62,363 nt of DNA from Sulfuricurvum sp. GTDB lineage: Bacteria > Campylobacterota > Campylobacteria > Campylobacterales > Sulfurimonadaceae. The stretch covers positions 19,224 to 81,586 of the forward strand of contig DZBD01000001.1 in assembly GCA_022729795.1 (NCBI GenBank), written 5' to 3'. Below, one piece after another: positions 847-56,798 of the stretch. The notes below the pieces were generated by a model. It did not search any database. It was not told the origin of the DNA and worked only from the letters and a program-made list of their open reading frames with translations. The translations under genes were made by a program, and so were the position numbers. Within the stretch, counting starts at the first letter, position 1. Every line of letters starts with the position of its first letter.

Positions 847-1563
847 TTATTTTTTTATATTTTCTAGCTCTTGTGCATATCCTATCATCGTACACATATC
901 ATGCACGTTTAAAGCAGCACTGCCTACCAAAATTCCATCCACCCCATCAAGAGCTAAAACATCCTTGGCATTTGTTACTTTTACACTTCCTCCATAAAGA
1001 AGCGGAGCAGAACATTTCTCTTTTAATTTTAAATGTAAAGATGAAATATCTTCCAAAGTGGGAGTAAGACCTGTTCCAATTGCCCAAACCGGCTCGTAAG
1101 CTACGATGAGATTGGCATAATGAACATCTATACCGATGTATTGAGCATCAAGGTACTCTGCCATTTTTTCATCACCTGATTCTCTCACTTCTAGCGGCTC
1201 GCCGATACAATACACTATAGTGAAGCCAAGTGCTTTATAAAAATCAAATTTTTTCATGATTTGTTCTTGAGATTCACCTAGAATATGACGGCGTTCACTG
1301 TGACCTATTAAAATAGTTTTTATTCCAAACTCTTCTAACTGCTCAAGCCCTATCTCTCCCGTATATGCGCCGTTAACGGTAGCGTATGCATTTTGAGCAC
1401 CCACAGTCAACTTTCCGGCATGTGGATTTAAACTCGAAGCAGTAGGAAAAACAACAACTTTTTGTGAAATATCATGTGCATTTAAAAAACTCTCTAACGC
1501 ATCCATATATTCCTGCGTCTGCTTTCTCGTTAGATTTGTTTTTAAATTTGCGGCAATAATCAT
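847..1563 (-). CDS. tpiA: triose-phosphate isomerase
   Basis: ORF; AANLKTN, GHSERR, AYEPVWAIGTG motifs. Confidence 0.96.
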   Translation of the reverse strand: MIIAANLKTNLTRKQTQEYMDALESFLNAHDISQKVVVFPTASSLNPHAGKLTVGAQNAYATVNGAYTGEIGLEQLEEFGIKTILIGHSERRHILGESQEQIMKKFDFYKALGFTIVYCIGEPLEVRESGDEKMAEYLDAQYIGIDVHYANLIVAYEPVWAIGTGLTPTLEDISSLHLKLKEKCSAPLLYGGSVKVTNAKDVLALDGVDGILVGSAALNVHDMCTMIGYAQELENIKK

Positions 1564-1567
1564 TAGA

Positions 1568-2770
1568 CTATGCCTCTTCTTTTTTAATCAACGGCAAAAC
1601 TCCGGGTAAAATTTTACCCTCCAATAATTCAAGAGAAGCACCGCCTCCCGTAGAGATAAATGTCATCTCTTCATCGAGTCCGATTCTTTGTACCAAGTCT
1701 GCCGTATCCCCGCCGCCTACAACAGTTGTAGCATAACTATCCGCAACAAAGTGTGCTATTTTGTTTGAACCGCGAGCAAATTTTTCCATTTCGTACACAC
1801 CCATAGGTCCATTCCAAAGAACAGTTTGCACATCATTGAGAACCTCTCTATAAAGTCGTACCGTTGCTGGTCCAATATCTAAGCCCATCCAGTTATCCGG
1901 AATTTCCTGTGCCGAGACAAGTTTACTCACAGAATCTTCCGCAAATCTTTCTGCCGCGACCACATCCACCGGAAGATAAAATTTCACTCCAAGACGTCTT
2001 GCTTCATCCATAATATGCTGCGCATCTTGTAAAAGATCATCTTCAACTAGGGAAGCGCCGATATTGTAACCCATCTGCTTTAAAAATGTAAATGCCATCC
2101 CTCCGCCAATAAGAACTTTATCCACTTTTGGAAGCAAGTTCACGAGTGCTTCTAATTTTCCTGAGACTTTCGAACCTCCTACAATGGCGGCAAAAGGGCG
2201 TACCGGCTGTTGAATAAGTTTTCCAAAAAACTGAATCTCTTTTTGAAGTAAAAATCCTGCTGCTTTATGCTCTTCATCAAAAAGATGAGTAATTCCTTCC
2301 ACTGAAGAGTGTGCTCTATGGCTTACTCCAAAAGCATCGTTAACATAAAATTCTGCCATTGAAGCTAATTTTTCAGACAATTCTAGTTCATTTTCCGTTT
2401 CACCCGGTTCGTAACGAAGATTTTCTAAAAGTAAAATTTCAGTCTCTTTAAGAGCTTTGGCTTTTGATATAGCATCTTCACCCACTACGTCTTTAGCAAG
2501 AATAACATCTCTTTTTAAAAGTTGCTGTAATCTTTTTGCAACAGGTGCCAGTGAATATTTTTCAATAACTTTGCCATCGGGTCTGCCTGAGTGCGATGCA
2601 AGGATTACGGCACAATCTTGGTCAATACAATAGTTGATAGTTGCCAATGCCGAACGTATACGTCTGTCATCTGAGATATTTCCGAATTCATCCATAGGAA
2701 CGTTAAAATCACATCTGATAAAAACTTTTTTACCCGCTAAATCCAAATTTTTTATATTTAAAAGTTCCAT
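1568..2770 (-). CDS. pgk: phosphoglycerate kinase
   Basis: [29 protein letters not shown] motifs. Confidence 0.97.
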
Positions 2771-2781
2771 AATAATCTCCC

Positions 2782-3783
2782 TTATTTACTAATATGAAGA
2801 GCCATATCTAACAATCTTGTAGAATAGCCCCATTCATTGTCATACCAAGCCATGATTTTCACCATATTGCCATCCACCACTTGCGTCAAATCCTCTGCTA
2901 TTATTGCACTGTATTCACACCCCACAAAATCTTGAGATACACGCATCTCTTTATCTATGAGAATGATGCCTTTGAGTTCAGTCTCTGCCATTTTATTTAA
3001 TACCGCATTCACTTCCTCTTTTGATGTTTTTCTACTCACAAGAACATTTAAATCAAGCATCGAAACATCGGGCGTCGGAACACGCACGCTTTGTCCATGA
3101 AGCTTGCCTGCGAGTTGTGGAAGAACCAAATTAATAGCTTTTGCGGCACCGGTTGAAGTGGGTATCATATTGATTGCACCGGCACGTGATCTACGTTTGT
3201 CTTTTGAATGTTTAACATCTAAAATATTTTGATCATTCGTGTAGGAGTGAATCGTTGTCATGAGACCTTTTTCAATCCCAAAGGCTTCATCCAATGCTTT
3301 GGCGATGGGGGCAAGACAGTTTGTAGTACAAGAAGCATTGGAAACTATTTTTTGACCCTCATACAGTTTTTCATTCACACCCATTACAAAAGTAGGAGTT
3401 AGTAGATCATTTGAAGGCGCAGAAAAAAGAACCTTGGAAATACCGTTATTAATGTGAATCTGTGCAGCTTCTTGCGTTAAAAAAACACCCGTACATTCTA
3501 AAACCATTTCAGCGCCGCAATCTGCAAAGCTAAGATTTTTAGGTTCACTATCATTAAATACTCTGATTTTCTTTCCGTTAACTAATATATTTTTTTCATC
3601 AATTTGTTCAACGCTACTTTGAAAAGTTCCGTGTACCGAGTCATTCTTAAAAAGATATAGCATCGTATCTATACTTGCCAGATCATTTATAGCAACAACT
3701 TCGATATCATCCCTTGTTGCTGCTATTCGGGCGACACAGCGACCGATTCGCCCAAACCCGTTAATTGCTATTTTTAGCGCCAT
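2782..3783 (-). CDS. gapA: type I glyceraldehyde-3-phosphate dehydrogenase
   Basis: [24 protein letters not shown] motifs. Confidence 0.97.
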
Positions 3784-3847
3784 TATTTCCCCTGATAAAA
3801 ATTATATTCGGTTATTTTATCCAAACTTAGTTATAATTTTAATTAAA

Positions 3848-4390: not shown

Positions 4391-4715
4391 AATAGAAAAA
4401 ATCGTATCGGTTCTTGATACAAACAAAGCTGAGGCGATTGAGGTTTTTGATTTAAGAAATAAAAATTACTTTGTAAGTTATGCAATTATTGCTTCATCAC
4501 TCGGGACTAAACATACGGTAGCACTTCTTAATCACTTAAAAACTGCCTTAAAACCTGAGGAAACTTTTATCAATATAGATGAGAGCGGAGACTGGATTGT
4601 GATAGATTTGGGAGATATACTCATCCATATCATGACTCCGGAATATAGAGTCAAATATGATATGGAAACTTTTTTAAGCAAGTTAGCCGAAGGGAAAGAG
4701 GGAGAGAGTCTTTAG
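4380..4715 (+). CDS. rsfS: ribosome silencing factor
   Basis: ORF; RsfS/Iojap family pattern, downstream of nadD. Confidence 0.92.
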   Translation: MQNRIEKIVSVLDTNKAEAIEVFDLRNKNYFVSYAIIASSLGTKHTVALLNHLKTALKPEETFINIDESGDWIVIDLGDILIHIMTPEYRVKYDMETFLSKLAEGKEGESL

Positions 4716-4730: not shown

Positions 4731-4758
4731 ATTTCCACATGCCATGGCATGTGGAAAT
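4731..4758. repeat. 28-bp perfect palindrome ATTTCCACATGCCATGGCATGTGGAAAT made of two inverted copies of the GGCATGTGGA word; possible bidirectional terminator
   Basis: Read directly; between the convergent genes rsfS (ends 4715) and the transglycosylase (stop at 4761). Confidence 0.9.
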
Positions 4759-8197: not shown

Positions 8198-9595
8198 TTA
8201 CTCTCCGATTCTTATAGAACAGGGTCTTTCTTGCACTTTATCTTCGCTGTATTTATTTAGAACGTTTAAAAAGCAATCACTATTGTTTAAAAACAATTGC
8301 ACTATTTTTGGATCAAATTGCGTACCGGAATGCTCTTTTATATAATGGAGCACATCATTGATATGCCATGAATCCTTATATACTCTTTTATTGATAAGGG
8401 CATCAAAAACATCCACCAAAGAGACTATTCGTGCAGATAACGGGATTGCTTCACCGGAGAGTTCGTGAGGGTAGCCGCTCCCGTCATATTTTTCATGATG
8501 ATAAAGTGCTATATCTGTAGCTATCTTCCCAATCTTTGGGTCACTATGAAAAGCTCGTTGGATAAGCTGTTCACCCTTGGTAGTATGGAGTTTCATCTCA
8601 CTAAATTCAGCCTCTGTAAGCTTGCCCGGCTTACAGAGGATACGGTCGGCAACCGTAATTTTACCTATATCATGCAAAACAGACATTTTTGCTATAATTT
8701 TTGCCTCATCTTCATAGATTCCTAAAAGTTTTGCCAAGATATAACTATATTCACTAATTCGCTTTACATGAGAGCCTGTTTCTGCACTTCGAAACTCGGT
8801 TATATCAGATAAAAGCATAATAATATCTTCATCAAAACCTGAACGGATAGTATCAAAAAGCTCAATTGTTTCTATATTATGATAAATTCTAGCGTAAAAT
8901 TCATCGCGAGAAAACGGCTTTGTTATATAATCGTTTGCACCGTCTTTGAGAAAACGGCTAGTAGTGTAGGAGTTTGTCTCAGATGTTAAAACAACAATGC
9001 TCAAATCTTTTTTTGTTCTTTTCTTGCGCACTTGTCGAACCAATTCCAATCCATCCATTAACGGCATGTGGAAATCGGTAATTATAAGCTCTATTTCTGG
9101 ATGCATCTCCAACTTTTTCAGAGCTTCTATCCCGTTGGAAGCGGTGAGAACTTTAAAACGGTGAATCACAAGATTTTGTTTTACGTAATTTGCATACAAA
9201 GAGGAATCATCCACGACTAAAATAAGTTTATTTTTATTGGACTCTAACTGGCGAAGTTTTTCAATAACATAAATAATATTCTCATATCTCTCTTTAAGAA
9301 CATAATCTACAATATTCGCACTCTCAAAGCCATCTCTAAAATCTTCATCAAATATTCCCGTAAAAACAATCGGAGCGATATTGTGCTTGTTTAAAAGTGA
9401 AATAATTTCACCGCTATGCGCATCGGGGAGGTGCATATCGGCAACGGCAAATTCATACCGTGTATTATGCAAAAACGTTTCTGCTTCTTGGTACGTGGTG
9501 GCAATATCAAAAGTAAAATTTGTATATTTCTTCAAGAGATCCTCAAAAACTCTACAAAGCATTTGAGAATCTTCTACAATAAGTAATTTTCCCAC
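8198..9595 (-). CDS. response regulator with two REC domains and an HD-GYP output domain
   Basis: ORF; two receiver domains, HDIGKI and HHEKYDGSGYP motifs. Confidence 0.92.
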   Translation of the reverse strand: MGKLLIVEDSQMLCRVFEDLLKKYTNFTFDIATTYQEAETFLHNTRYEFAVADMHLPDAHSGEIISLLNKHNIAPIVFTGIFDEDFRDGFESANIVDYVLKERYENIIYVIEKLRQLESNKNKLILVVDDSSLYANYVKQNLVIHRFKVLTASNGIEALKKLEMHPEIELIITDFHMPLMDGLELVRQVRKKRTKKDLSIVVLTSETNSYTTSRFLKDGANDYITKPFSRDEFYARIYHNIETIELFDTIRSGFDEDIIMLLSDITEFRSAETGSHVKRISEYSYILAKLLGIYEDEAKIIAKMSVLHDIGKITVADRILCKPGKLTEAEFSEMKLHTTKGEQLIQRAFHSDPKIGKIATDIALYHHEKYDGSGYPHELSGEAIPLSARIVSLVDVFDALINKRVYKDSWHINDVLHYIKEHSGTQFDPKIVQLFLNNSDCFLNVLNKYSEDKVQERPCSIRIGE

Positions 9596-9637: not shown

Positions 9638-11776
9638 TTATAAAATAATTTTTACCGTGTTATACGCAATAAATGCTAAGCTATACGCCACTATAGAGGT
9701 AAACGCCAAAAGGTAGAAAAAGTACTTTATTCCGCCTGCTTCACGGGTAAAAACAATAGAAGCGGCAAGACACGGCAGATAAACCATAATCACAACGATA
9801 AATGAAACAGCGGATGCAAAAGGGATATTTTTGGAAATAGCGGCAATCAAAGAGCCGTTTTGCTCGTTTGCATCCTCTCCTAGAGAATATAAAACTCCCA
9901 AAGTAGAAACAACAACCTCTTTGGCGGCAAGCCCTGCCTGAAGTGCAATACTCATTTTCCAATCAAATCCAAGAGGTTCAAAAAGAGGTTCAGAAAATTT
10001 TCCGATTTGACCTAAATAGCTTTGTTGCAGATTTTCTTCTGCGAGTTTATTTACAAGTGCTGTTTTTTCTTTTTCATTTTGGATATTTTCTATCTTAAGG
10101 GTAAACTCTTTTTGAAGCTGTGCATTGTGAGGATAATTGCTCAAAAACCAAACAAGCAACGATGCCGCTGCGATAAAAGTTCCCGCTTTTTTCAGATACA
10201 TCCAAGTTTTCGTAACAACCGTATGCCAAATAAGTTTTGCAGAGGGAAGTCTGTATTTGGGCATCTCCATAACAAAAGGTTCATCTACCCCTTTGAATGC
10301 CGTGAGTTTGAGTATTTTTGCAGCTACAAGACCCAAAAGTGCGCCTGAGATATAAATTATAAAGAGAACCGTTCCCGCCTTCTCGGGAGAAAAAAATGCA
10401 CCTGCAAAAAGCACGTATACAGGAAGTCTTGCACCGCAACTCATAAACCCTATAATAAAAAGAGTCAAAAGCCTATCTCTGTCATTTTTTAAAATTCTCG
10501 CACTCATATAAGCAGGAATGGAACATCCAAACCCCGTCACAAGCGGAATAAAAGACTGTCCGTGAAGTCCAAACTTATGAAAAAATCCATCTAATAAAAA
10601 GGCAACTCTTGACATATATCCCGTGCTCTCAAGAAGTGCTATACCGATAAACAAAATAATAATATTGGGAACAAAAAGTACAACAGCGCCCACTCCCCCT
10701 ATAATTCCGTCTACAATTAAGGAACGGACATCATCATTTGGTATGGTTGTTCCGATGGTATTGCCAAACCAAGCAAAAAAACCGTCAATCCATTCCATAG
10801 GGATAGAGCCTATTTCAAAGGTAATCTGAAAAAGAAACCACATAAAAAAGAGAAAAATCGGAATTCCTAGTATCGGATGGATTAAAATACTATCTATCTT
10901 TTCTGTTAAGGTTTTTCTTTCATCAAGTTTTTCCTGTTTTAAAACCTCAGCAACTACACCTCTGTTAAATGAAGCATATTCTTCGGCAAAAGCTTCTTTG
11001 ATATCATCGCTGTCGTGATGCAATTCCACATGCCGAGATGCATCTATAAGAATAGGCTGCAACTCCGTCCAAATAGGGTTGTCATGAATTCTAGTATATG
11101 TTTTTTTATTGTTTTTGAGAAGATTAATGGCAACATTTCTGTAAGAGTTCACAGCATCGTACTTATGTTTCGTTAAGTAATCCACGATGATGGCAATTTC
11201 CTCCTCAACGGCTTCGCTAAAGATAAGTTTTGACTCATCTCTGCTTGTCTCGGATTGGCGTATCACAGCTTCGATAAGCTCTTTTATCCCCATTTTTGTA
11301 GCAGCAGACACCTTTACGCAAGGGATTCCAAGAAGAGTCGACATATACTCGGCATCAATCAGGACCCCCTCTTTGTCTGCCTCGTCACTCATATTTAAAG
11401 CAATAACGATAGGCTTGCTCATACTCATCAGTTCTGAGCTTAGCTGAAGATTTTTTTCTAAATTTGTAGAGTCAACTACATTAATAATTAAGTCATAACT
11501 CTCAGCGCAGAGGTAATCATGTGTCACCCGCTCTTCTATAGTGTAATCTGTAAAAGCATATGTTCCCGGCAAATCTACAACCGTAAAATGGTAATCTTTA
11601 TAATCAAATAAGACCTCCGATTTTTCCACCGTCACACCGGTAAAATTTCCTACATGCAAATGTGCGTTGGATATAGAGTTGATAAGCATACTCTTTCCAA
11701 CGTTTGGCTGACCGACTAGAGCTATTTTTATATGCTTTGCAATTACAGGGCAAAACTTTCCAATCGTATCTTTCAT
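9638..11776 (-). CDS. feoB: ferrous iron transport protein B
   Basis: ORF; GQPNVGKSMLIN G-domain, FeoB membrane domain. Confidence 0.96.
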   Translation of the reverse strand: MKDTIGKFCPVIAKHIKIALVGQPNVGKSMLINSISNAHLHVGNFTGVTVEKSEVLFDYKDYHFTVVDLPGTYAFTDYTIEERVTHDYLCAESYDLIINVVDSTNLEKNLQLSSELMSMSKPIVIALNMSDEADKEGVLIDAEYMSTLLGIPCVKVSAATKMGIKELIEAVIRQSETSRDESKLIFSEAVEEEIAIIVDYLTKHKYDAVNSYRNVAINLLKNNKKTYTRIHDNPIWTELQPILIDASRHVELHHDSDDIKEAFAEEYASFNRGVVAEVLKQEKLDERKTLTEKIDSILIHPILGIPIFLFFMWFLFQITFEIGSIPMEWIDGFFAWFGNTIGTTIPNDDVRSLIVDGIIGGVGAVVLFVPNIIILFIGIALLESTGYMSRVAFLLDGFFHKFGLHGQSFIPLVTGFGCSIPAYMSARILKNDRDRLLTLFIIGFMSCGARLPVYVLFAGAFFSPEKAGTVLFIIYISGALLGLVAAKILKLTAFKGVDEPFVMEMPKYRLPSAKLIWHTVVTKTWMYLKKAGTFIAAASLLVWFLSNYPHNAQLQKEFTLKIENIQNEKEKTALVNKLAEENLQQSYLGQIGKFSEPLFEPLGFDWKMSIALQAGLAAKEVVVSTLGVLYSLGEDANEQNGSLIAAISKNIPFASAVSFIVVIMVYLPCLAASIVFTREAGGIKYFFYLLAFTSIVAYSLAFIAYNTVKIIL

Positions 11777-13546: not shown

Positions 13547-14104
13547 ATGAAATTTTTATTCAATCCTACATCCCACTTTAACTTAGCAAATCTTTTTACA
13601 TTCGTGAATATTACCGCTGGTCTGAGTGCAACCTATTTTATTACACAAAATAACTTCTTCCTAGCTATTGTTTTGGCTTGGATTGGTGGTGCTTTTGATA
13701 TTTTTGATGGAAAAATTGCTAGAAAATACAAACTTTCCAACGAGTTTGGTATTCAACTCGATAGCTTTGCAGATTTTTTAAGTTTTGTTTTGGTGCCTGT
13801 ATTTTTAATTTTTCAAGCCGTCTATTTCACCTCACTCTCTGGCATGTGGATTCTTGCAGCTTCCATCATTAGTATATACTATGTTATTTCAGGTCTGAGA
13901 CGGCTTATCAGTTTTAATATTCATGCAGATGTGGGAGAAGTTGCAAAATTTTTCACAGGTGTGCCGACTCCGCTTGGTGCGATTTTACTCTGGTTGGTTT
14001 ATCTTTCTCATGCATATGGATTTATTCCTGCGTACGTAGTTTTGGTTCTCATGATTGGTATCGGATGGAGCTTGAACTCTACTCTTAAAGTTCCCCATCC
14101 CTAG
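13547..14104 (+). CDS. pssA: CDP-diacylglycerol--serine O-phosphatidyltransferase
   Basis: CDP-alcohol phosphotransferase motif DIFDGKIARKYKLSNEFGIQLDSFAD; likely start at internal Met (13547) of the 13499 ORF. Confidence 0.93.
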   Translation: MKFLFNPTSHFNLANLFTFVNITAGLSATYFITQNNFFLAIVLAWIGGAFDIFDGKIARKYKLSNEFGIQLDSFADFLSFVLVPVFLIFQAVYFTSLSGMWILAASIISIYYVISGLRRLISFNIHADVGEVAKFFTGVPTPLGAILLWLVYLSHAYGFIPAYVVLVLMIGIGWSLNSTLKVPHP

Positions 14105-15457: not shown

Positions 15458-15479
15458 GGCATGTGGAATTCCACATGCC
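15458..15479. repeat. 22-bp perfect palindrome GGCATGTGGAATTCCACATGCC (two inverted copies of the word)
   Basis: Read directly; just 3' of the cusA-like gene (stop at 15485). Confidence 0.9.
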
Positions 15480-21226: not shown

Positions 21227-21985
21227 TTAAAACAAGTCGGCATGATCAAAAAAAACTTCATATTTAGTATCTTTACGCAAACTCTCTAAAATAATTTTGG
21301 CTTTGAACTTTGTCTCTTTATCGAAATAAATAAGCATATTTCTTGACATTATAAAGTCAAATTTTCCTATTTTTTTAAAAGAGTTATCAAAGATGTTGGC
21401 TAACTTAAAATGTACAAGTATCTGAACACACTCTTTTAAAGCATAAGATTCATCTATTTTTGTAAAATATTTACTGAGGGTTTCCGGTGGCAAGTTTCTT
21501 ACACTTTTTTGGTTATAAGTGGCTAATTTGGCTTTTTTGAGAGCATCGGCATTAATATCTATACCAAGTATGCAAAAGCGGCTAGGCAAAACACCCGCTT
21601 CCAACAAGGCAATGGCTATGCTATAAGGCTCTTCCCCTGTCGCACAAGGAGCGCAAAGAATTTCCACATGCCAAGGGATTTTTTTTACAAGGTATATTTC
21701 CAAGAGTGCAAAATATTTTAACCTTGCTTGTTAAAATACTCATCTGCGCATCAAAAGTAACTCCGGTTTGTTTTTTAAAAAACTCGGCAATTGGAGTTAC
21801 GTCCGTAAAGTCTTCTTGCTCCAACACTTTTTTTTCAGCCTCTTTAAAGGATGCTTTTTTAAAAAAAATCCACCATATGCTGTGCTATTATGATATTTGT
21901 ATTTTGAAGGAGAGGAAGCGCTAAGATGATTTTTAGTATTTGCCCCAGACCTCCTGAGGAGGCACCTATGAGGACAACATTTTTA
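21227..21985 (-). pseudogene. decayed cheB-cheR remnant
   Basis: Minus frame ~21985-21859 reads [41 protein letters not shown] (CheB start); next frame ASFKEAEKKVLEQEDFTDVTPIAEFFKKQTGVTFDAQMSILTSKVKIF (CheR N-terminus); third frame LEIYLVKKIPWHVEILCAPCATGEEPYSIA..FDFIMSRNMLIYFD (CheR methyltransferase). Confidence 0.82.
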
Positions 21986-27163: not shown

Positions 27164-27197
27164 GGCATGTGGAAATATTTCTTTATTTCCACATGCC
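27164..27197 (+). terminator. hairpin from two inverted copies of the word (14-bp stem, 6-nt loop) after the DEAD-box gene
   Basis: GGCATGTGGAAATA tttctt TATTTCCACATGCC read directly; 23 bp after the stop. Confidence 0.75.
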
Positions 27198-33295: not shown

Positions 33296-33326
33296 TGCAC
33301 ATGCCAAGAATATCTTGGCATGTGGA
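33296..33326 (+). terminator. hairpin from inverted GGCATGTGGA-type copies (one exact, one with a single mismatch) after the peroxiredoxin gene
   Basis: TGCACATGCCAAGA ata TCTTGGCATGTGGA; 12-bp stem around a 3-nt loop. Confidence 0.75.
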
Positions 33327-34617: not shown

Positions 34618-35310
34618 TTCGATTCCCCTGTATTTTTCTTTGTGTTGTTGCTACTGCATATATCTTGTTTTTTTCATCGACCAAGACTGTTGCCGTTATA
34701 GAAACCTCGACTATTTCCCCGCTTTTCATGAGTCTTTTTGCAATGTAAGGTCGAAGAAATTCGCTCTTGCTGAGCTCGGTTATTTTTGCAAGTGCCTCTT
34801 GTATCTCGGCATGTGGAATTATCATCTCTATATTCATACGCAAAGCTTCCTCCTCGCTCCAGCCGAATATTCTTGTAGCCGCAGGATTCCACGCCAAGAT
34901 TTTACCTTGTAAATCCTGCAAAATAATCGCATCGTTTGCATCTTGAATAACCACGACCATACGTAAGAGTTGCTTATTAGCAAGGCTGAGTTCTTCGCGC
35001 ATTTGTAGTATTTTTGGTCTAAAGTTTGTACCTCAATCTCTTTTGGAACAAGAGTACCTAGAACCTCTTGTAAATCCTCTCGCATACTGTCGTATCCAAT
35101 CATATTGGAGACGATATGATTGACGGGTCGTCCGATATCACTCAAAATAAGGTTGATAATTTTACTCGCAGCGGGAGTAAATCGTAATATACAAAACTTG
35201 TGGTCTACAAATATAGTGCCTATACCCGTTCCTGCCAAAAGGTTATTTGGTATTTTTTTACTCACGTCGGCTCTACCTTCTTTGCGAAAATTTATATCTT
35301 CGGTATATTT
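34610..35310 (-). pseudogene. C-terminal remnant of a CheB-CheR-PAS hybrid protein, frameshifted/deleted near 35005
   Basis: Frame A (KEGRADVSKKIPNNLLAGTGIGTIFVDHKFCILRFTPAASKIINLILSDIGRPVNHI..LVPKEIEVQTLDQKYY) then frame B (REELSLANKQLLRMVVVIQDANDAIILQDLQGKILAWNPAATRIFGWSEEEAL); resembles the linker/PAS part of CheBR hybrids. Confidence 0.78.
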
Positions 35311-38495: not shown

Positions 38496-39883
38496 TGGCG
38501 GCAACACCCTATTTTATACTTAGCCCCAACCTTATTTTGAGTGTTATCGGCTTAATTCACGGTGAGGATAAAACAGTCGCAACGCCACCGCAAGATTGGA
38601 GAGAAGCTTCCGTAAACGTGGTTATACCCGCACTTAATGAAGAAAAAAACATTGTCCTTTGTTTAGCCTCTTTACTGCATCAAACTTTAAAACCCAACAA
38701 TATAATTCTCGTGGATGACGGCAGTAAGGATTTAACCATTGCACATGCCATTGCTTTTTGTCGGGAAAACCATCTCAATATCACCATCATCCACAGAGAC
38801 CATCCTATAGGAAAAACTCCTACTATCAAACGTCAGGCACGGGAGTTTACCTCGGATGTAGAGTTTATCATAGACTCCGACACCATCCTTGAATCTCCAA
38901 ACTACATCCAAAGAGTAGTGGAAGAACTTTACAAAGGGGTAGGGATTGCCTCGGCATGTGGAACTATTCTGCCCATACGCGACAAAGACAGAAAAGCGAT
39001 GATACAAAGCCCTGAAGTTGTGAAATTTACACAAAAATTTCCAGATGCCGATATGTATCTCAAACAAGACCCCTTTCATATCTTTGCAAGAAAAGTGAGC
39101 AATCTTTATAGAGAAGTGCTTTATCTTTTTTTACAAAAATTTATCTATCACGGGCAAATGGTATTTTTTGGTTCCATCGTCAATCCCGTCGGGTGCGCCG
39201 TCGCCTACAAAAGAGAATATATTAAAAATCTTTTTGACAAATACGAACCGATTTTAGGTGATGATTTGACAAACTCCGAGGATATATTTATAGGTTTTGC
39301 ACTTCTCAAAGAGGGATACAGGAACATCCAGCTCATGGACGTTTACGCACGTTCGCAAGAACCTGAAATAGAACGTATTCCCCATGAGTTGTATATGTGG
39401 TCCTCCTCCTTTTTTCAGAGTTGCTATTATTTTGATGACTTGGTTCGAAGCCCTTTTAAATCGTTCAAAAGTTATCTCCACCATAAAAAAGCACAAAAGC
39501 TTCATAATAAAGAGATTCAAAAGAAAAGAAAAATTGCAGAGCCTTACAGACAAGCATTCGGAGAGGGGCTAACAATGCAATACGGTCGACCGATGGGGTG
39601 GGTTATTTTCGTCTCCCTTTTGGAAAAAACTTTTTTTCCTGCAACACTTTTTGCCATGATTATTTTGCAATTATGGGAGGGTTTACTACTCACCGTACTC
39701 TTTGAAACCATCGCCTCCGTAACTATTTTAGCTTATATCAACAAAACAAAACGGCTGGAATATCTCTTTAAAGGGATTCTTGTCACGCCAATCCGATATG
39801 CAAGTATCCTTTTTGATTTTGTAACTATGTTTCGGTTTGCCAAAGATATATGGCTTGGCAAGAAAAAAGGGTGGCGCAAATGA
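38495..39883 (+). CDS. family 2 glycosyltransferase, membrane associated
   Basis: ORF; VVIPALNEEKNIVLCLASLLHQTL, DDGSKDLT, FIIDSDTIL, multiple TM segments; TAATG overlap with the upstream gene. Confidence 0.9.
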   Translation: MAATPYFILSPNLILSVIGLIHGEDKTVATPPQDWREASVNVVIPALNEEKNIVLCLASLLHQTLKPNNIILVDDGSKDLTIAHAIAFCRENHLNITIIHRDHPIGKTPTIKRQAREFTSDVEFIIDSDTILESPNYIQRVVEELYKGVGIASACGTILPIRDKDRKAMIQSPEVVKFTQKFPDADMYLKQDPFHIFARKVSNLYREVLYLFLQKFIYHGQMVFFGSIVNPVGCAVAYKREYIKNLFDKYEPILGDDLTNSEDIFIGFALLKEGYRNIQLMDVYARSQEPEIERIPHELYMWSSSFFQSCYYFDDLVRSPFKSFKSYLHHKKAQKLHNKEIQKKRKIAEPYRQAFGEGLTMQYGRPMGWVIFVSLLEKTFFPATLFAMIILQLWEGLLLTVLFETIASVTILAYINKTKRLEYLFKGILVTPIRYASILFDFVTMFRFAKDIWLGKKKGWRK

Positions 39884-40853: not shown

Positions 40854-41978
40854 TTACTCTTGCAAAAGAACAAGCTCTCCAAAGGGGACACCCGCAACTT
40901 TGGGACTTATCCACTTTACTTCATAAGAGGGCTTGGCATGTGCAAATATACCCTCTAAATCCGTAAAATACAAAAGAAGTTTTGTATCATGCAGCTCATT
41001 TTCTATAAACTCAAAAACAGGTCGAAAGTCGGTTCCCCCTCCCCCTTTGAGCCTGCATTCCAAAGTCTCACCACTGTAAAAAACAGTGTGGGAGCGGATA
41101 GTATCGTCACACACCAGCATATCGATTTGATAGTTCGGCACCACTTCCATCAAAAAGTTTATCTCGCTCAAAAATGTATTTAAGAGTGTCTCATCCACGG
41201 AACCGGAACTGTCCACCGCTATGACTAAGCGCAAGGTGTTACTGATGCAAGAAGGAAGATACACCCCCGTATAAAGGAACTTTTTATTAGGAGGGATGAG
41301 AATATAATCATCTTTATGAAAGCGCTCAATGGCAACTTTTAGCTCATTTCTCCAGTCTATTTTTGAGTCTCTTTGAAGTTTAAAAAACCGCTCTATCGCC
41401 TTGGGTGCATCCCCTTGTTTCTCTTTTGAGATCAAAACTCCAAGCATCTCCTCGCCAAAGAGCTGCTCTTGGAGTATCTCCTCTTGAAGTTGTTCTTGTG
41501 TTTTTTTTTCATTATTATTATTTTGGACATCACCCGCATCATCGGCTTCATATTCCAAATCTTCATCCTCACGGAGAATATCATCTTGAAGCTGGGCATA
41601 AATCTCCTCCGCGTACATCCCTTTGAAACGTACCCGATACTGTGCTCCGTAGGGAAGTTCCATCTTGTTTTCTACAAGCATATCGTTCACTGCCAAATCC
41701 GTAGCCATCTGCCAAAGCCACCCGCTACGTCCGTTTTTGCGCATCTCATGGGCTAAAGAAGCATGCATCGCCCCGTTGGCAAAAACAAACTCCATCTCCC
41801 CGATACTCAATCCTTCAAAAAAATCGCCGTTATACTCCACTTTGTTTCCGTCACTCTTAAAAGCCTGTATATCATCGTTTTGCACCAAAGTAAGACGAGA
41901 AGCAATAGTTCCAAAAAGGGGATAATCCACAAGAAGTTTCGCTTTGGCTTGGGAAATTTTATCTGCTAATCTTGGCAT
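40854..41978 (-). CDS. VWA-like (DUF2201) metallopeptidase-domain protein
   Basis: ORF; SLAHEMRKNGRSGWLWQMATDLAVND and LVIAVDSSGSVDETLL; start codon lies inside a copy of the word. Confidence 0.85.
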   Translation of the reverse strand: MPRLADKISQAKAKLLVDYPLFGTIASRLTLVQNDDIQAFKSDGNKVEYNGDFFEGLSIGEMEFVFANGAMHASLAHEMRKNGRSGWLWQMATDLAVNDMLVENKMELPYGAQYRVRFKGMYAEEIYAQLQDDILREDEDLEYEADDAGDVQNNNNEKKTQEQLQEEILQEQLFGEEMLGVLISKEKQGDAPKAIERFFKLQRDSKIDWRNELKVAIERFHKDDYILIPPNKKFLYTGVYLPSCISNTLRLVIAVDSSGSVDETLLNTFLSEINFLMEVVPNYQIDMLVCDDTIRSHTVFYSGETLECRLKGGGGTDFRPVFEFIENELHDTKLLLYFTDLEGIFAHAKPSYEVKWISPKVAGVPFGELVLLQE

Positions 41979-42120
41979 GTGGATTTGTACCTTGGGTAAT
42001 TTTTGAAGTATTATAGCAAAGCTCTAATGCGTCAAATGTTAGATTATAAAATACTCTTGGCATGTGGAAATATTTCAAATGCAATTAGATATAATTCACC
42101 CAATTTTCAAAAGGATATGT

Positions 42121-43107: not shown

Positions 43108-43131
43108 GGCATGTGGAAATCTCCACATGCC
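43108..43131. terminator. hairpin GGCATGTGGA aatc TCCACATGCC between convergent DUF475 and moxR genes
   Basis: 10-bp stem, 4-nt loop; last base overlaps the moxR stop codon. Confidence 0.75.
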
Positions 43132-44126
43132 TAACTTAAAAGATAAGCAAACTTTTGCACCCACTCTTTAAAAACCTCGGAATGTTCCATTTTGACTCCG
43201 TTTCTTTGCAAATCCTGTACCGCCATCACCGCAAATTCACTCTTTAATCCCAAGGTATATTGCAGCAAATTATCAAGATTTTCTTTTGTGTCGTCTCTCA
43301 AAAGAGCACTTACGAGTCCTGTGCAAAGAGCGTACAGTACATCAATCTCATCAGGATATTCCCCATTTCCACATGCCAAGATATTTGCAATATCAGGCAG
43401 TTTATGCATCACTTTTGAAAAACTTAAAAAGCCTACGGCAACATCTTTGCCTACAGCGCCCGACAAACAGTCCAAAAGAAGCTTCTCTTTGAGGGTACTT
43501 TTGAGGATACTGTCTACGTATTCCCAGCTTCTAGGTGTTGCAAAACTTTTGGTATCGCTCTTGGCATCAAAGGTAAAAAGATGCTCATTTTTGTATGCGA
43601 TATAAGCAATAATTCTCTCATCCACTTTTTTTTGATACGCCCAAAAACGCCACTCGTTCACATCTACCTCCATCTCAAAATGGACAAATCTATTGGCAAG
43701 AGGGCTTGGCATACGGTAGGTCACGCCGCGGTCGCCCTCACGGTTTCCCGCGGCAACTATCGCCCAACCCTCGGGGAGTTCATATTCTCCTACTTTTCTG
43801 TCCAAGATAAGCTGATATGCCGATGCTTGCACGCTTGGCGGTGCGGAGTTGAGCTCATCTAAGAACAAAATCCCCTCTCCGCCTCGAGGCAAAAATGCGG
43901 GAGGCGCCCAAAGTGCGGTATGGGATTCTTTGTCATAAAAAGGGATTCCTTTGAGGTCGGTGGGGTCCATCAATGCGAGCCTTAAATCTACAAAACCGAT
44001 ATTTTTTGCCTCAGCTATCTGCTTTACGATGGAGGACTTTCCTATTCCCGGCGCACCCCACAAAAAAGTAGGAACTTTTTGCTCACTCAGCGCAGCAACG
44101 GTACTTATCAAATCTGATGCTTTCAT
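43131..44126 (-). CDS. MoxR-family AAA ATPase
   Basis: ORF; WGAPGIGKSSIVKQIAE, LFLDELNSAPPSVQASAYQLILDRKVG. Confidence 0.92.
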   Translation of the reverse strand: MKASDLISTVAALSEQKVPTFLWGAPGIGKSSIVKQIAEAKNIGFVDLRLALMDPTDLKGIPFYDKESHTALWAPPAFLPRGGEGILFLDELNSAPPSVQASAYQLILDRKVGEYELPEGWAIVAAGNREGDRGVTYRMPSPLANRFVHFEMEVDVNEWRFWAYQKKVDERIIAYIAYKNEHLFTFDAKSDTKSFATPRSWEYVDSILKSTLKEKLLLDCLSGAVGKDVAVGFLSFSKVMHKLPDIANILACGNGEYPDEIDVLYALCTGLVSALLRDDTKENLDNLLQYTLGLKSEFAVMAVQDLQRNGVKMEHSEVFKEWVQKFAYLLS

Positions 44127-49077: not shown

Positions 49078-49230
49078 GAAAATCTCAAAATACTACTTCA
49101 TTATATTTCTAAAAATCGAAAAAATTTCTACACTAAAAATTACTATTTTATAAAAACTTTCCACATGCCAAGAAAAAAAGTTCCCTCTCTCTCAAGTTTT
49201 GAGACTGTGAAATACTTACGCTCTTGGAGC

Positions 49231-49329: not shown

Positions 49330-50388
49330 TCAGAGCCTCTGCGTCTTTGCGAGCGAAGCGAAGCAATCTATAGGGGAAATCTCGCACCCGTGAAACTCGA
49401 AATCCAAAGTATCGGGCATCTCTTTATACAACAAAGGGCTATCCAAATCCACATGCCAAAGAACATCTCTGTATGCCATTGCCAGATGAAGGGCAATATT
49501 GATAGAATAAGGTCCCTCAAGCATCGAACCTAGCATACATTTTATCCCGTTTTTTCTAGCATATTCGAATATCTCCGCCGCCTTGCTCACACCGCCGCAT
49601 TTCATCAGTTTGATGTTTATCATGTCGGCACTTTTTGATTCTACGACTCTCTTGACATCTTCCAAACTAAATACGGCTTCATCGGCTAAAATAGGGATAT
49701 GAGAATACTCCGTAATGGTTTTGAGCCCCGTCAAATCGCTTGCAATGACGGGCTGTTCTATTAATTCTATTTTCAAATCTTTCACTGCATCGATGAATTT
49801 GAAAGTACTTTGCACATCCCAAGCCTGATTGGCATCCACTAATATCTTGGCATGTGGAACCTCTTTGGCAATCGCTGTGAGTATTTCTACGGCATGTGCA
49901 ATATCTGCACCCACCTTTACTTTTAAAATCCACATGCCCGATTTATAGGCTTTTTTTGCCTCTTCAAGCATGGCATGTGGATTGTTGAGGCTGATAGTTA
50001 TTGCCGTTTGGATAGGCTCAAGTGTAACTGCTCCGAAATACTCATACGGTTTTTTTCCTTGCTCTTGGGCAATAAGTGAAACCAAAGCGATATCCAAAGC
50101 CGCCTTTGCACTGCTTTTCATAGCGCTCTTGTGTAAAATACGGAGTGCATCTTCGGGGATACGGGAAATGAGCTTTTCTTTGAATGCGGCGATGGATTCA
50201 AGAATACTCTCACAATCTTCCCCCGTAATCGCCTTTGTTGCAGGTGCTTCCCCATATGCAAAAGTTCCATTTGCACATGCCATGCGCACCCGTACGAATT
50301 CCACATGCCGAGCTGTTCTTAGAGCAGTAATAAAGGGAGTTTTCAGTTCTATAAGCTCTATTTGCGTTTGTATTTCTATAATTTTCAT
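49330..50388 (-). CDS. dipeptide (L-Ala-D/L-Glu type) epimerase, enolase superfamily
   Basis: ORF; WILKVKVGADI, ILVDANQAWD, IPILADEAVFSLEDV, KLMKCGGVSKA; C-terminus DCFASLAKTQRL lies in the repeat. Confidence 0.88.
   Translation of the reverse strand: MKIIEIQTQIELIELKTPFITALRTARHVEFVRVRMACANGTFAYGEAPATKAITGEDCESILESIAAFKEKLISRIPEDALRILHKSAMKSSAKAALDIALVSLIAQEQGKKPYEYFGAVTLEPIQTAITISLNNPHAMLEEAKKAYKSGMWILKVKVGADIAHAVEILTAIAKEVPHAKILVDANQAWDVQSTFKFIDAVKDLKIELIEQPVIASDLTGLKTITEYSHIPILADEAVFSLEDVKRVVESKSADMINIKLMKCGGVSKAAEIFEYARKNGIKCMLGSMLEGPYSINIALHLAMAYRDVLWHVDLDSPLLYKEMPDTLDFEFHGCEISPIDCFASLAKTQRL
49346..49370. repeat. GAGCGAAGCGAAGCAATC-type dispersed repeat
   Basis: ctttgcGAGCGAAGCGAAGCAATCta read directly; I recognise this word as a common intergenic repeat in unrelated bacteria. 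Confidence 0.65.
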
Positions 50389-51581
50389 TTTGCCAAGCCT
50401 ATTAAAAGATGTCCCACTGCCAAACCTCCGAATGTACCGATAATATAACCCATCACTGCCATCAAAACTCCCACACTTGCAAGCGATTTGTTGTACGTGG
50501 CGGCAAGAATAGGTGCAGATGCCGCTCCACCGATATTTGCCAAACTAGCCACTGCGATACTAAACAAATCAAGCTTAAAGATTTTTGCCCCCGCAACCAT
50601 CAAAACAGCGTGAATCATTAAAATTACAAAACCTGCCAAAACATAAACACCCACCGAAGAAAAATTCTCAAATACGGCTTTGGAGCCGATAAGAGCAACA
50701 AGAAGATAAAGCATTGAAGTTGCCACCTCGCTAGAGCCGTTAACATCTCTTAGTTTCGTAAAAGAGCCCAAAACCCCAAAAACAGATGCCATTAAAACTA
50801 TGGTCGTAGTCGAATTAAATATTTCCACATGCCAAGAGATAAACTGCGAAATAAAAGAAACAATAAGCGCAAAAAATATCAAAAGCCAGTATCTTTTGGC
50901 ACCGATTGTACAAGCACACCCTATTGCATCCAAGCACGCCATCTTTTGAGCGGAGTTTGTAAAAGCGTTAAAATATTTTGCAAAGGGAACCAAAAAAAGC
51001 AAAAACATCACCCAAACCGTATAATTCACACTGTCGACTATCAGCACATATCCGTAGGCTTCTTGAGAAACTCCAAGGGCAGAACCTACCGCAATCATAT
51101 TTGCCGTGCCCCCCATCCAGCTTCCCGACAAAGCACCAAAAGCGCCCGCCTCACTCGGGTTGAAACCAAAAAGCAGAGTAACCGCCACAAATCCACATGC
51201 CAAAGAAAATACCGCCAAAACATATGCGATGAGCAAAGATTTACCAAGCTTAAAAAAATGGCGCAAATCCACCTGCAAAAGCATCAAAAATAACATAGCC
51301 GGAAGAAGATTTGTTTTTGTCAGCAAATAGATATTTTTTATAGCTTCATTATCTCCAAACATCCCAAAACCGGCAAAAATCATACTCACGGCATAAATCA
51401 TTACAACGCCGGGGATAAGCTTAAAAGCTTTAATTTGTGTTTTTTGTTCTATAATTCCAAAAAGAGTTGCAATAAAAGCCAAAGTCAAAAGATAAACAGA
51501 TGCAGAACTTATCAAAAAACATCCTTTTTTTTGATAGTGTAGCATATATTTTAAGGATGAAAGATGAAAAAAATTGCCCAC
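50385..51581 (-). CDS. DUF819 family membrane protein
   Basis: ORF; GSWMGGTANMIAVGSAL, ASLANIGGAASAPILAATYNKSLASVGVLMA; the true start is probably downstream of the ORF start. Confidence 0.82.
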   Translation of the reverse strand: MGNFFHLSSLKYMLHYQKKGCFLISSASVYLLTLAFIATLFGIIEQKTQIKAFKLIPGVVMIYAVSMIFAGFGMFGDNEAIKNIYLLTKTNLLPAMLFLMLLQVDLRHFFKLGKSLLIAYVLAVFSLACGFVAVTLLFGFNPSEAGAFGALSGSWMGGTANMIAVGSALGVSQEAYGYVLIVDSVNYTVWVMFLLFLVPFAKYFNAFTNSAQKMACLDAIGCACTIGAKRYWLLIFFALIVSFISQFISWHVEIFNSTTTIVLMASVFGVLGSFTKLRDVNGSSEVATSMLYLLVALIGSKAVFENFSSVGVYVLAGFVILMIHAVLMVAGAKIFKLDLFSIAVASLANIGGAASAPILAATYNKSLASVGVLMAVMGYIIGTFGGLAVGHLLIGLAK

Positions 51582-52916: not shown

Positions 52917-52920
52917 TTGC

Positions 52921-53301: not shown

Positions 53302-53310
53302 GGAAAAAAA

Positions 53311-54054
53311 TTGACAAAAAAATATGTAATATTAGACACCGAAACAACAGGTACAGCAGAAAACGACAGAATAATACAGCTGGGGTACATTGTCCTCGGT
53401 GCGCCGAAAATAGAGGTGCATAATGAATTTTGTGCATCTGCGGTGCCTATTAGTTTTGGCGCTATGGAGGTGCACGGAATCACTCCCGATATGATTGAGG
53501 GAAAATCCACATGCCAAGAAACACACGCCTATAAAAGGCTTCAAGAGCTTAATATTCCCCGAAACTATATTATCATCCATAATGCGCCCTTTGACTTGGG
53601 AATGCTTGAAAAAGAGGGTTTTGATACGCAAATGAAGGTGATTGACACGCTTAGAGTTGCAAAGCATATTTTTGAGGATGAGGATGCGCACAGACTTCAA
53701 TATTTTCGCTATAAAATGGAGCTTTATAAGCAGGAGCAAAAAGAAGCGGATGCGCTGGGAATAGTTGTCAAAGCCCATGATGCAATCGGGGATGTTTTGG
53801 TACTCAAACTTTTTTTAAGCAAGCTCAAAGATGCCGTATCTGCAAAATTCCCAAATGAAAACCCTGTGGAAAAAATGGTAGATTTAACCAACACCCCTAT
53901 TCTGGTAAAAATTTTCAAGTTTGGAAAACACAAGGGTAAAACGCTTGAAGAAGTAGCAGCTGCAGATGCAGGTTATCTTCGATGGATGCTGAGTTCTATG
54001 GAAAATCTCGATGAAGATATGCGCTATTCTATCAATACGGTTTTAGGCAACTAA
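53311..54054 (+). CDS. exodeoxyribonuclease X-like 3'-5' exonuclease (DnaQ fold + DUF3820-type C-terminus)
   Basis: ORF (TTG start); VILDTETTG, IIHNAPFDLGML, KFGKHKGKTLEEVAAADAGYLRWML. Confidence 0.85.
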   Translation: MTKKYVILDTETTGTAENDRIIQLGYIVLGAPKIEVHNEFCASAVPISFGAMEVHGITPDMIEGKSTCQETHAYKRLQELNIPRNYIIIHNAPFDLGMLEKEGFDTQMKVIDTLRVAKHIFEDEDAHRLQYFRYKMELYKQEQKEADALGIVVKAHDAIGDVLVLKLFLSKLKDAVSAKFPNENPVEKMVDLTNTPILVKIFKFGKHKGKTLEEVAAADAGYLRWMLSSMENLDEDMRYSINTVLGN

Positions 54055-55380
54055 ACTAAACAATATAAAAAGCACAAGGGCAAAGCCGCCCGCTATCAAG
54101 GCATAAGGAAGCTGTGTTTTCGTATGCTCTATAACGTCACAATCGCTTGCCATTGCAGAGATTATCGTCGTATCCGAGATAGGGGAACAGTGGTCGCCAA
54201 ACACCCCGCCGGAAATTACTGCACCGATACATAAGGCTATGCTTGCATCCATCCCCACAGCCATCGGTACCGCAACGGGAATCATAATACTAAATGTCCC
54301 CCAGCTCGTTCCCGTAGAAAAAGACAAAAGTGCACTTAGCAAAAATATAACCGCCGCTAAAAGGTAAATACTCAGCACATCACGGACTAAGGATGCCAAA
54401 TACAAACCTGCTTGAAGCTCCACGGTAAGCTTTCCCATAGCAAAGGCAAGAAGAAGTATCAAAGCAATGGGAATGAGCTTTTTTGCCCCGCTAAAAGCAC
54501 TCAAGCTCCATGTGGAGATACTCATATTTTTTGTCCCCACAAAATAAAAAAATGTAAAAAACAAACTTACAAGCATCGTATAAAAGATAGAACTCGAACC
54601 GCTTCCTTTTAAAACATCTCCATCACCCGTAATATACAAAAATAAAAATGTAAAAAATATCATCATAAAAATCGGTAAGAGCATCAGATACATACTTCCG
54701 GCTTTAAAGTTTTTTGTGTGATAGAGTGTCGGCGTAGGTTTTGCATATCGCATCGGTCCGATATCAATACCAAAATAAACGGCTAAAAACGTTACAAGCA
54801 AAGCACTCATGGCATAAAAATTATATACGATAGATTCGAGGAGAATTTCTATTGCGTTTCCCGCAATCACTCCTAATGAAATTTGAGTAGAGATAAGCCC
54901 TAGTAAAAGTGCACCCCACCCGTTGAGAACGATTAAAGAACAAATAGGTGCAGAGGTGGAGTCGCAAACAAAAGCAAGCTTGGCATGTGGAATATTATAT
55001 TTATCACAAAGCGGCTTCCCTACCGCGCCGGCAATGAGCGAAGTGATAGAAGATTCTACAAAAATCACTACACCTATGAGATAACTCAGTAAAAGAGCAG
55101 AACGCCCTGAACGCACATAGGCTTTTTTTTCCATTACAAACTCGACAAACCCGCCAATTCCGCCGCTTTTTTCTATCAAAGCCATAATACTTCCCACCAA
55201 AATTACAAAACCCAAACTCTTCAGTATCCAACCCTCGCCGAGCAAAGAGGAAAAAATAAGAAAAAGGGAGTTCAATGAGGCTAAGAGCGTAAAATCATTT
55301 AAGATAAGAACCCCAAAAAGGATTCCTCCAAAAAGAGATAAAAATACATTTTTTGAATAAAGTGCTACAACGATAGCCAA
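54043..55380 (-). CDS. NhaC-family Na+/H+ antiporter
   Basis: ORF; SFSTGTSWGTFSIMIPVAVPMA, GGVFGDHCSPISDTTIISAMASDCD. Confidence 0.9.
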   Translation of the reverse strand: MAIVVALYSKNVFLSLFGGILFGVLILNDFTLLASLNSLFLIFSSLLGEGWILKSLGFVILVGSIMALIEKSGGIGGFVEFVMEKKAYVRSGRSALLLSYLIGVVIFVESSITSLIAGAVGKPLCDKYNIPHAKLAFVCDSTSAPICSLIVLNGWGALLLGLISTQISLGVIAGNAIEILLESIVYNFYAMSALLVTFLAVYFGIDIGPMRYAKPTPTLYHTKNFKAGSMYLMLLPIFMMIFFTFLFLYITGDGDVLKGSGSSSIFYTMLVSLFFTFFYFVGTKNMSISTWSLSAFSGAKKLIPIALILLLAFAMGKLTVELQAGLYLASLVRDVLSIYLLAAVIFLLSALLSFSTGTSWGTFSIMIPVAVPMAVGMDASIALCIGAVISGGVFGDHCSPISDTTIISAMASDCDVIEHTKTQLPYALIAGGFALVLFILFSLVA

Positions 55381-55425
55381 AAAGGAAGGGATAAGAGAGA
55401 GGGCTGAGAGCTCTATAAAAGAATC

Positions 55426-56049
55426 CTAAAACTCAATAGCGAGCAATTCTAAACCTGCTCTTCCAAATTTTTCTCTGTAAAGTTCACACTCTTTTTCTTG
55501 AACCTCTTTGAAGCCGAGTTTTTTGTAAAACATTTTCGTCTCAAGAGCACCTATCTCGATGATAGTTTGCGCAATTCTATAACCTTTGAGTCTGGCAGTA
55601 AGAAGACTTTTTTGCATCAATGCTTTTAAAATTCCAAGGTCGATAAAACCTTCAACCTCTTGCATAAAATCAAACATGAGTGTTCTGTTGTTCAAATCAA
55701 AATCGCAGCTGTAAAGAACTTCAAGACCTTGAGAAACATTCGGCTCAGAGCCTATCTCTTGTAAAGCATCTACAAAAGCCTGCTTGGTAGCGATTCTCGG
55801 TTCATAACTACAAAGAGTTCCTACGCTTTTACCGCTGAGTTCAGCAATAAGAAAATTAGTATAATGGCAGCGATTCTTCGCCTGTGTTTTACAGAGAGCC
55901 TCTAGTTTTTTGAGTATCTCTTGATTATCGTTTGTGCTAAAGATGAGATCAAACATTCCCTCTTTTTTTCCAGCTCTGCTTCCTTGCAACATCATCTGTG
56001 CTAAAAAAGGTGCATCATCCGCATTAGCTTGTCTTATTTTAATACTCAT
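55426..56049 (-). CDS. GNAT-like acetyltransferase
   Basis: ORF; IRQANADDAPFLAQMM...KLGFKEVQEKE. Confidence 0.65.
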   Translation of the reverse strand: MSIKIRQANADDAPFLAQMMLQGSRAGKKEGMFDLIFSTNDNQEILKKLEALCKTQAKNRCHYTNFLIAELSGKSVGTLCSYEPRIATKQAFVDALQEIGSEPNVSQGLEVLYSCDFDLNNRTLMFDFMQEVEGFIDLGILKALMQKSLLTARLKGYRIAQTIIEIGALETKMFYKKLGFKEVQEKECELYREKFGRAGLELLAIEF

Positions 56050-56102
56050 AACTTTTTCCGTCGATTAATTAGATTCATATAAGAGTAATAGTACCATACT
56101 TT

Positions 56103-56798
56103 ATGATAAAAAGTTTCTTAATTATTACAATTTTACAGATTTTGTTATTTTCATCACAACAAATAATTTTAGTTGTCGCTGAGGATTACAACAGTTCAAA
56201 GGCTTCTTTGGTCTGCTACGAAGAGGGCAAAAAAATATTTGGCACTATGGAAGTAAACATAGGTAAAAATGGCTTGGGAATGGGAATTGGAGCGGTAGAA
56301 CTGCCCGATAAAAATCCTTCCGTGATAAAAAAAGAGGGAGATCAAAAAGCACCCGCGGGTATCTTTAAGCTCACCTCTATATTCTCTTACGATAACAATT
56401 TAGCTTTCCACATGCCGCACTTACATGCTTCAAAAAAACTTATATGCGTAGATGATTCAGACTCAAATCTTTACAATAAAATTGTACAAATGCCCCAAGA
56501 GCCGCCAAAAAGTTTTGAATATATGAAAAGAGATGACCGACAGTACGAATTGGGAGTGGTCATAGAGCATAACAAAGATGGAATAAAAAAAAGAGGTTCT
56601 TGTATTTTTATGCATATCAAAAAATCGGATGATAGCGCTACTGCAGGATGTACGGCTATGAGTTTGCAAGAGATGCAGCAGATAAGTTCTTGGCTGGATG
56701 AGAGTAAAAATCCTTTACTTATCCAGATTCCAAAGTTGCTACAAGAGGAGATTAAAAGACTCTATCCGGAGCTAAAAAACTCCGAACTGCTTCATTAG
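56103..56798 (+). CDS. L,D-transpeptidase (YkuD-like) family protein
   Basis: ORF; APAGIFKL, SCIFMHIKKSDDSATAGCTAMS. Confidence 0.85.
   Translation: MIKSFLIITILQILLFSSQQIILVVAEDYNSSKASLVCYEEGKKIFGTMEVNIGKNGLGMGIGAVELPDKNPSVIKKEGDQKAPAGIFKLTSIFSYDNNLAFHMPHLHASKKLICVDDSDSNLYNKIVQMPQEPPKSFEYMKRDDRQYELGVVIEHNKDGIKKRGSCIFMHIKKSDDSATAGCTAMSLQEMQQISSWLDESKNPLLIQIPKLLQEEIKRLYPELKNSELLH

Follow-up and report, generated by a model that had tools for sequence, protein, structure and literature searches.

The 10-bp word GGCATGTGGA, which is dispersed over a 62,363-nucleotide stretch of DNA (the whole of it called the window here; positions 19,224 to 81,586 of contig DZBD01000001.1, assembly GCA_022729795.1, deposited as Sulfuricurvum sp.), is probably a DNA uptake word, with CTYGGCATGTGGAWWT as its extended form; the uptake preference, the receptor and the mechanism of drive were inferred from the patterns described below. 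A role like that of the DNA uptake sequence (DUS) of Neisseria or the uptake signal sequence (USS) of Haemophilus had been suggested in the initial annotation of the window, and this suggestion was supported by the lack of polarity, the existence of dialects, the origin of the copies by substitution and the confinement of decay products to relatives that have lost the word; those of its refuting conditions that lent themselves to computation were all run, and none held. The host was placed as a species of Sulfurimonas (Campylobacterota) because the phosphoglycerate kinase encoded in the window matched metagenome-assembled genomes (MAGs) labelled Sulfurimonas with up to 90% identity, and its earlier attribution to Campylobacterota was thus borne out by named relatives.

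Exact matching recovered 34 copies of GGCATGTGGA, split 17:17 between the strands of the window, and so reproduced the number, coordinates and strand balance reported before. The mean in 100 dinucleotide shuffles of the window was 0.07 and the maximum 2, and GGCATGTGGA was the top over-represented word of the window for k = 8-12. Genome-wide counts were obtained by word search over whole genomes, and base-level statistics were obtained from a 546-kb sample (34 contigs) of the genome holding the window (G000; 2.25 Mb in 140 contigs, 92% complete, 0.7% contamination). The whole-genome count of G000 was far from background, with 410 copies on the plus strand and 430 on the minus strand (840 in all), and the reversed control word gave 0. 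The sample contained 247 copies, where a third-order Markov model predicts 0.51, and the density was uneven among contigs (0 in 9.6 kb of C121, 0.88/kb in C86). The base before GGC was T at 21 and C at 11 of the 34 window copies, and the base after GGA was A or T at 33 of the 34, in agreement with the constrained flanks described earlier. The word itself stood, while the consensus first given for it proved too short: the genomic consensus in the sample was CTYGGCATGTGGAWWT, 16 bp with an AT flank, and information around the 10-mer fell to background about 3 bases out on both sides. A second form, GGCATGTGCA, was tolerated in G000 (37 copies where 0.7 would be expected, in 515 kb) and was far commoner there than any other one-mismatch form.

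By exact whole-genome counts, 19 of 135 Sulfurimonas species carried GGCATGTGGA or its relics and 116 were at background. Eight species were strongly enriched, namely G000 (840 copies), G060 (758), G066 (887), G067 (1298), G081 (859), G082 (721), G093 (401) and G095 (1302), and a further 11 had 31 to 357 exact copies. When one mismatch was allowed, many of the weaker carriers rose strongly (G137 to 434, G149 to 677, G096 to 589 and G129 to 320 copies), which points to dialects or decay. The form [AT]GCATGTGGA was found in G137 and the single-cell genome L044, GGCATGTGGR in G119 and G086, and a form shifted to CTTGGCATGTG in G129; GCATGT was common to all four GGCATGTGGA-type forms. No enrichment of GGCATGTGGA was found in other genera among 399 genomes sampled from the order; within Sulfurimonas the dialects were restricted to clades. 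In a tree of four proteins (named loci, a single FastTree run), carriers were located in several separate parts of Sulfurimonas; the word would therefore either be ancient with frequent losses or have been transferred between lineages. Among 2.9 million viral contigs, a 15-mer of the consensus was matched once each in 38 and several times in none, an uninformative outcome. In G061, 71 copies of GGCATGTGGA were clustered in some contigs (C3, C10, C13 and C21; loci L146-L151, L261 and L262), and 160 kb sampled elsewhere had 1 copy; the clusters are either islands imported from a carrier species or contamination of the bin.

Within genes, GGCATGTGGA was located at ungapped homologous positions, and the relatives differed through base changes. 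The copy at 1417..1426 (+), on the opposite strand of the triosephosphate isomerase gene (847-1563 -), was intact in L022, L034 and L044 and showed ungapped substitutions in other relatives, and the copy at 11025..11034 (-), in a feoB-like gene (9638-11776 -), was intact in L022, L023 and L094. Orthologous sites of carriers at five targets were bimodal, with 24 perfect, 2 with one mismatch, 0 with two and the rest with 3-8. L021 (the same genome as G096) and L019 lie inside the carrier clade and yet lacked the word at those sites, where 0 were perfect and many had 1-2 mismatches; judged from sequence, these are eroded relics. Species with the second word TAAACGCAR (described below) had 2-7 mismatches at the same orthologous sites. 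Words with one mismatch in the core (positions 3-8), all of them small counts, numbered 5 against 11.7 expected in G000 and 0-3 in G066, G095, G067 and G081, and in the eroded genomes 13 against 3.9 (G149) and 7 against 4.1 (G096). The copies thus appear to be policed in carriers and to decay elsewhere, as expected if biased uptake and recombination, and not local function, keep them.

The upkeep of the copies also bears on the possibility that GGCATGTGGA is bound by a nucleoid-associated protein or global regulator that varies from species to species. The broad spread and the asymmetric site of 10-16 bp are compatible with such a protein, as is the intergenic enrichment, the density in the sample being 2.12/kb between genes and 0.35/kb in genes, a six-fold excess (genes being taken simply as the longest frames, coding and intergenic figures are approximate). 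Nevertheless, 183 of the 247 sampled copies were inside genes in either orientation, close species alternate between different words, and carriers without decay products beside relatives with neutral-looking relics are better explained by a transfer-driven repeat, so this explanation is quite unlikely.

The extent of the conserved sequence was likewise considered with regard to a self-recognition word that acts after surface binding (in periplasmic passage, restriction protection or recombination) or through methylation. There is a precedent in the same phylum, Campylobacter jejuni, which takes up only RAATTY-methylated DNA (PMC8468864, PMC10046745). An asymmetric word of 10-16 bp with AT flanks, whose dialects shift at the edges, resembles a direct protein-DNA footprint instead, and action at a later step or through methylation is accordingly quite unlikely.

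The strand bias expected of a Chi-like or KOPS-like role was absent from the draft genome, both locally and in the overall counts. Besides the genome-wide balance given above, neighbouring sites in the sample lay on the same and opposite strands in a ratio of 97:117, and copies in genes had the same direction as the gene in 89 cases and the opposite one in 94. A signal for recombination or segregation, recognised by a nuclease or translocase, would fit the hundreds of dispersed G/T-rich copies, and Chi words are also over-represented. It is very unlikely here, because gene orientation was neutral and neighbouring sites had no common polarity; moreover, Chi and KOPS follow conserved proteins, whereas most sister species lack GGCATGTGGA and some have other words in its place, and inverted pairs are not expected of such signals.

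Inverted pairs near gene ends, which the initial annotation had noticed between genes, were confirmed in the G000 sample. Copies were mostly single, and 25 of the 31 pairs closer than 60 bp were inverted; of 16 tight inverted pairs whose flanking genes were clear, 7 were between convergent genes and 0 between divergent ones, compared with 20 convergent and 43 divergent among 169 control intergenic gaps. Four such pairs were located in the window, and their predicted hairpins had folding energies of -17 to -24 kcal/mol. The pair at 4734..4743 (-) and 4746..4755 (+) lies between convergent gene ends (4380-4715 +, 4761-6191 -) and folds into a 12-bp hairpin (-17 kcal/mol, z -4.8); that at 15458..15467 (+) and 15470..15479 (-) lies directly downstream of an RND transporter gene (15485-18544 -; z -4.3); that at 27164..27173 (+) and 27188..27197 (-) lies 24 bp downstream of a DEAD-box helicase gene (25533-27140 +; -23.7 kcal/mol, z -8.3); and that at 43108..43117 (+) and 43122..43131 (-) lies between convergent gene ends (42064-43098 +, 43131-44126 -; z -5.8). 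By analogy, the gene-end inverted pairs correspond to those co-opted as terminators in Neisseria and Haemophilus (PMC1852404, PMC13020248), and use of GGCATGTGGA pairs as terminators is most likely a secondary co-option, as in those two genera (PMC1852404). A mobile short repeat (REP/MITE-like) or a family of transcription terminators, to which the stable hairpins at gene ends might point, is refuted as the primary cause and highly unlikely, since conservation is limited to about 10-16 bp, the sites in homologous genes show no insertion and most copies are single.

For the uptake word, the following mechanism is proposed. A DNA-binding part of the transformation machinery at the cell surface, most likely a minor (pseudo)pilin that feeds the Cts-like secretin, would bind GGCATGTGGA and prefer DNA carrying it, so that the word would mark self DNA. 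Imported strands would recombine with the chromosome; copies matching the receptor would be re-imported and spread by gene conversion, and mismatched alleles would be replaced through import and recombination. Point mutations creating the word would thereby be fixed over time at tolerated sites, both genic and intergenic. Different lineages of Sulfurimonas would have different receptors and hence different dialects.

Competence genes, for which the initial annotation had recommended a look elsewhere in the genome, were present: comEC, dprA, a Cts-like secretin/ATPase operon and pilins. In G000, an intact ComEC gene adjoins dnaB, DprA is present, and an operon linked to hslU-era encodes a secretin, an AAA ATPase and membrane or periplasmic proteins (Pfam/NCBIfam assignments, as for the following operons). 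The Cts-like operon in G066 and G081 continues to a GspE-like ATPase and a GspF-like protein, and by domain families the architecture and order agree with cts of C. jejuni in G066, G081 and, as far as the stretch was read, G000. The cts order of C. jejuni is secretin (CtsD), AAA ATPase (CtsP), membrane protein (CtsX), GspE-like protein (CtsE) and GspF-like protein (CtsF). Transformation of C. jejuni requires the secretin and ComEC (PMC10046745). Ten pilin-like N-termini were found, with pilin-like proteins of G000 on C58, C68, C71, C92 and C110; G000 also encodes a type II secretion system (C92, L169) and an MSHA-like pilus (C68, L170) with a 450-aa pilin-like protein. On contig C58 of G000 (L173), two pilin-like genes adjoin a 1787-aa repeat adhesin.

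Several observations weigh against the uptake word. The paper search brought up no account of Sulfurimonas being transformed. Nearly all species of the genus have ComEC, DprA and the Cts-like operon, and their presence alone is therefore of no predictive value for the word. The MSHA-like pilus of C68, considered as the receptor system, was absent from the word-rich G060, G066, G067, G081 and G095 and present in many wordless species, and so did not track the word. Loss of an uptake gene as the cause of erosion fared no better. In G096, comEC is split (L229:716-10119, G096:C15), with residues 1-179 after dnaB and residues 164-419 located 8.1 kb further on; the 8.1-kb insert begins with a TnsA-like gene (PF08722), its ends are imperfect (TGACAATA/TGTCAATA), 5 bp (GTCTC) are duplicated, and these features give it the look of a Tn7-like element. 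In G143, the sister of G096, erosion is just as far advanced and comEC is intact, so that the insertion is unsupported as the cause and may be later than the erosion. For G149, loss of ComEC as the cause was withdrawn: the neighbouring dnaB is also missing from the MAG, and the missing comEC is for that reason unusable. Loss of DprA was rejected as well, DprA being present in G096, G143 and G149. A broken uptake gene and erosion thus co-occur in the G096 clade, and comEC as the trigger is unsupported.

Two further words, TAAACGCAR and TTACATGTAA, surfaced in named relatives and were then counted in all 135 species. TAAACGCAR reached 1305 copies per genome, had at least 100 copies in 30 species, was strand-balanced with a low control word, and was about ten-fold over-represented in species without GGCATGTGGA (e.g. 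L025, L027, L028, L032, L037, L039, L041 and L045). The palindrome TTACATGTAA, hugely over-represented in still other Sulfurimonas species (loci L051, L060, L063 and L064), reached 425 sites per genome and had at least 40 in 17 species, with 0-7 for the control. TAAACGCAR had 0 species in common with GGCATGTGGA (4.2 expected, P 0.006) and 0 with TTACATGTAA (3.8 expected, P 0.010), where the P values are uncorrected for shared descent and the cut-offs were set by eye. GGCATGTGGA and TTACATGTAA had only G148 in common, which was weak in both, with 36 exact copies of GGCATGTGGA (258 within one mismatch) and 43 of TTACATGTAA; G148 is possibly a lineage switching words. Sites of TAAACGCA were likewise ungapped in homologous genes. 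As uptake words, TAAACGCAR and TTACATGTAA are less certain than GGCATGTGGA, because TAAACGCAR, a shorter word, seldom lay between genes in the sample and TTACATGTAA is palindromic; since pooled k-mer tests on homologous loci overstate words that are common by descent, only whole-genome counts were relied on for these two. In pooled homologous loci, CTCACGCAG was found 15 times in the Sulfurimonas indica group (L062, L069, L073, L074, L082, L053 and L057), where the expectation was 0.5, and TAAACGCGA 9 times in another group (L048, L056, L065 and L066), where it was 0.1; provisionally, they are possible further dialects of the second word. On balance, it is somewhat more probable than not that Sulfurimonas uses several DNA-uptake languages of self-recognition (GGCATGTGGA with its dialects, TAAACGCAR and TTACATGTAA); these words occur, hardly ever together, in 65 of the 135 species, the other 70 having none of the three, and they would have replaced one another outright several times.

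Among known systems, HIP1 of cyanobacteria is a hyper-abundant short palindrome that is lineage-specific and tied to methylation; GGCATGTGGA is similarly hyper-abundant, short and lineage-specific, but asymmetric, and the palindromic form is shared with HIP1 by TTACATGTAA. The USS of Pasteurellaceae (AAGTGCGGT) has a short core and an AT-rich flank as GGCATGTGGA does, but USS has extended T-tracts downstream, whereas in G000 the flanks stop being informative about 3 bases beyond the 10-mer on both sides. Further likenesses to USS, for which ComN/PpdA is the proposed receptor (PMC12616744), are that copies build up through point mutation (PMC1939737) and serve in terminators (PMC1852404). The Neisseria DUS (GCCGTCTGAA) is also 10-12 bp long, with hundreds to thousands of copies and gene-end inverted pairs (PMC3630211, PMC1852404), and the eight DUS dialects of Neisseriaceae have CTG in common (PMC3630211), as those of Sulfurimonas are built around GCATGT. 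In contrast, the Sulfurimonas word is unrelated in sequence, belongs to a different phylum, has no identified ComP and is less dense (1 per 2.7 kb, compared with about 1 per 0.4-1.1 kb for DUS; PMC7371117), and little or no sequence is shared with the words of other Sulfurimonas species. C. jejuni, of the same phylum, has ComEC and a similar secretin-ATPase-inner-membrane operon and discriminates self DNA at uptake (PMC8468864, PMC10046745), but by the methylated 6-mer RAATTY and not by a longer over-represented word of plain sequence.

The remaining copies in the window were mostly located in genes. Four are in an rmuC-like gene (24100-25395 -), at 24607..24616 (+), 24689..24698 (+), 25220..25229 (-) and 25349..25358 (-), and five are in a dipeptide-epimerase-like gene (49330-50388 -), at 49448..49457 (-), 49929..49938 (-) and 50300..50309 (-) and, on the opposite strand, at 49849..49858 (+) and 49972..49981 (+). 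A DUF819-like membrane protein gene (50385-51581 -) holds those at 50824..50833 (-) and 51192..51201 (-). Single copies were found at 9063..9072 (+) in a response-regulator/HD-GYP gene (8198-9595 -), 13841..13850 (+) in a pssA-like gene (13499-14104 +), 21663..21672 (-) in a cheR-like reading frame (21227-21703 -), 34808..34817 (+) in a PAS-domain reading frame (34610-35002 -), 38953..38962 (+) in a glycosyltransferase gene (38435-39883 +), 43368..43377 (-) in the MoxR-like AAA gene (43131-44126 -), 53506..53515 (-) in an exonuclease-like gene (53311-54054 +), 54982..54991 (+) in an NhaC-like antiporter gene (54043-55380 -) and 56407..56416 (-) in the gene at 56103-56798 (+). The copy at 41974..41983 (+) overlaps the 5' end of the gene at 40854-41978 (-), and that at 42059..42068 (+) is at the start of a terC-like gene (42064-43098 +). 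Those at 33317..33326 (+), between the convergent genes 32654-33286 (+) and 33343-34617 (-), and at 49160..49169 (-), between 47920-49032 (+) and 49330-50388 (-), are intergenic.

Neisseriaceae and Pasteurellaceae were described in 2025 as the only families known to have such uptake words (PMC12616744). No report of such a word in Campylobacterota was found in the open-access literature, and a literature search for GGCATGTGGA itself gave only unrelated eukaryotic and primer contexts. If the present reading is true, Sulfurimonas would be a third, unrelated lineage with uptake words, in another phylum and strikingly varied. If the genus indeed has several languages, the origin and switching of uptake words would be directly studiable within one genus: the 135 sister species provide a comparative series of carriers, dialects, alternative words and eroded relics, in which the beginnings, drift, switching and loss of uptake words could be followed. 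Sulfurimonas species that differ in their word would be predicted to be genetically isolated from one another, and donor DNA equipped with the right word might allow these abundant environmental sulfur oxidisers to be transformed in the laboratory.

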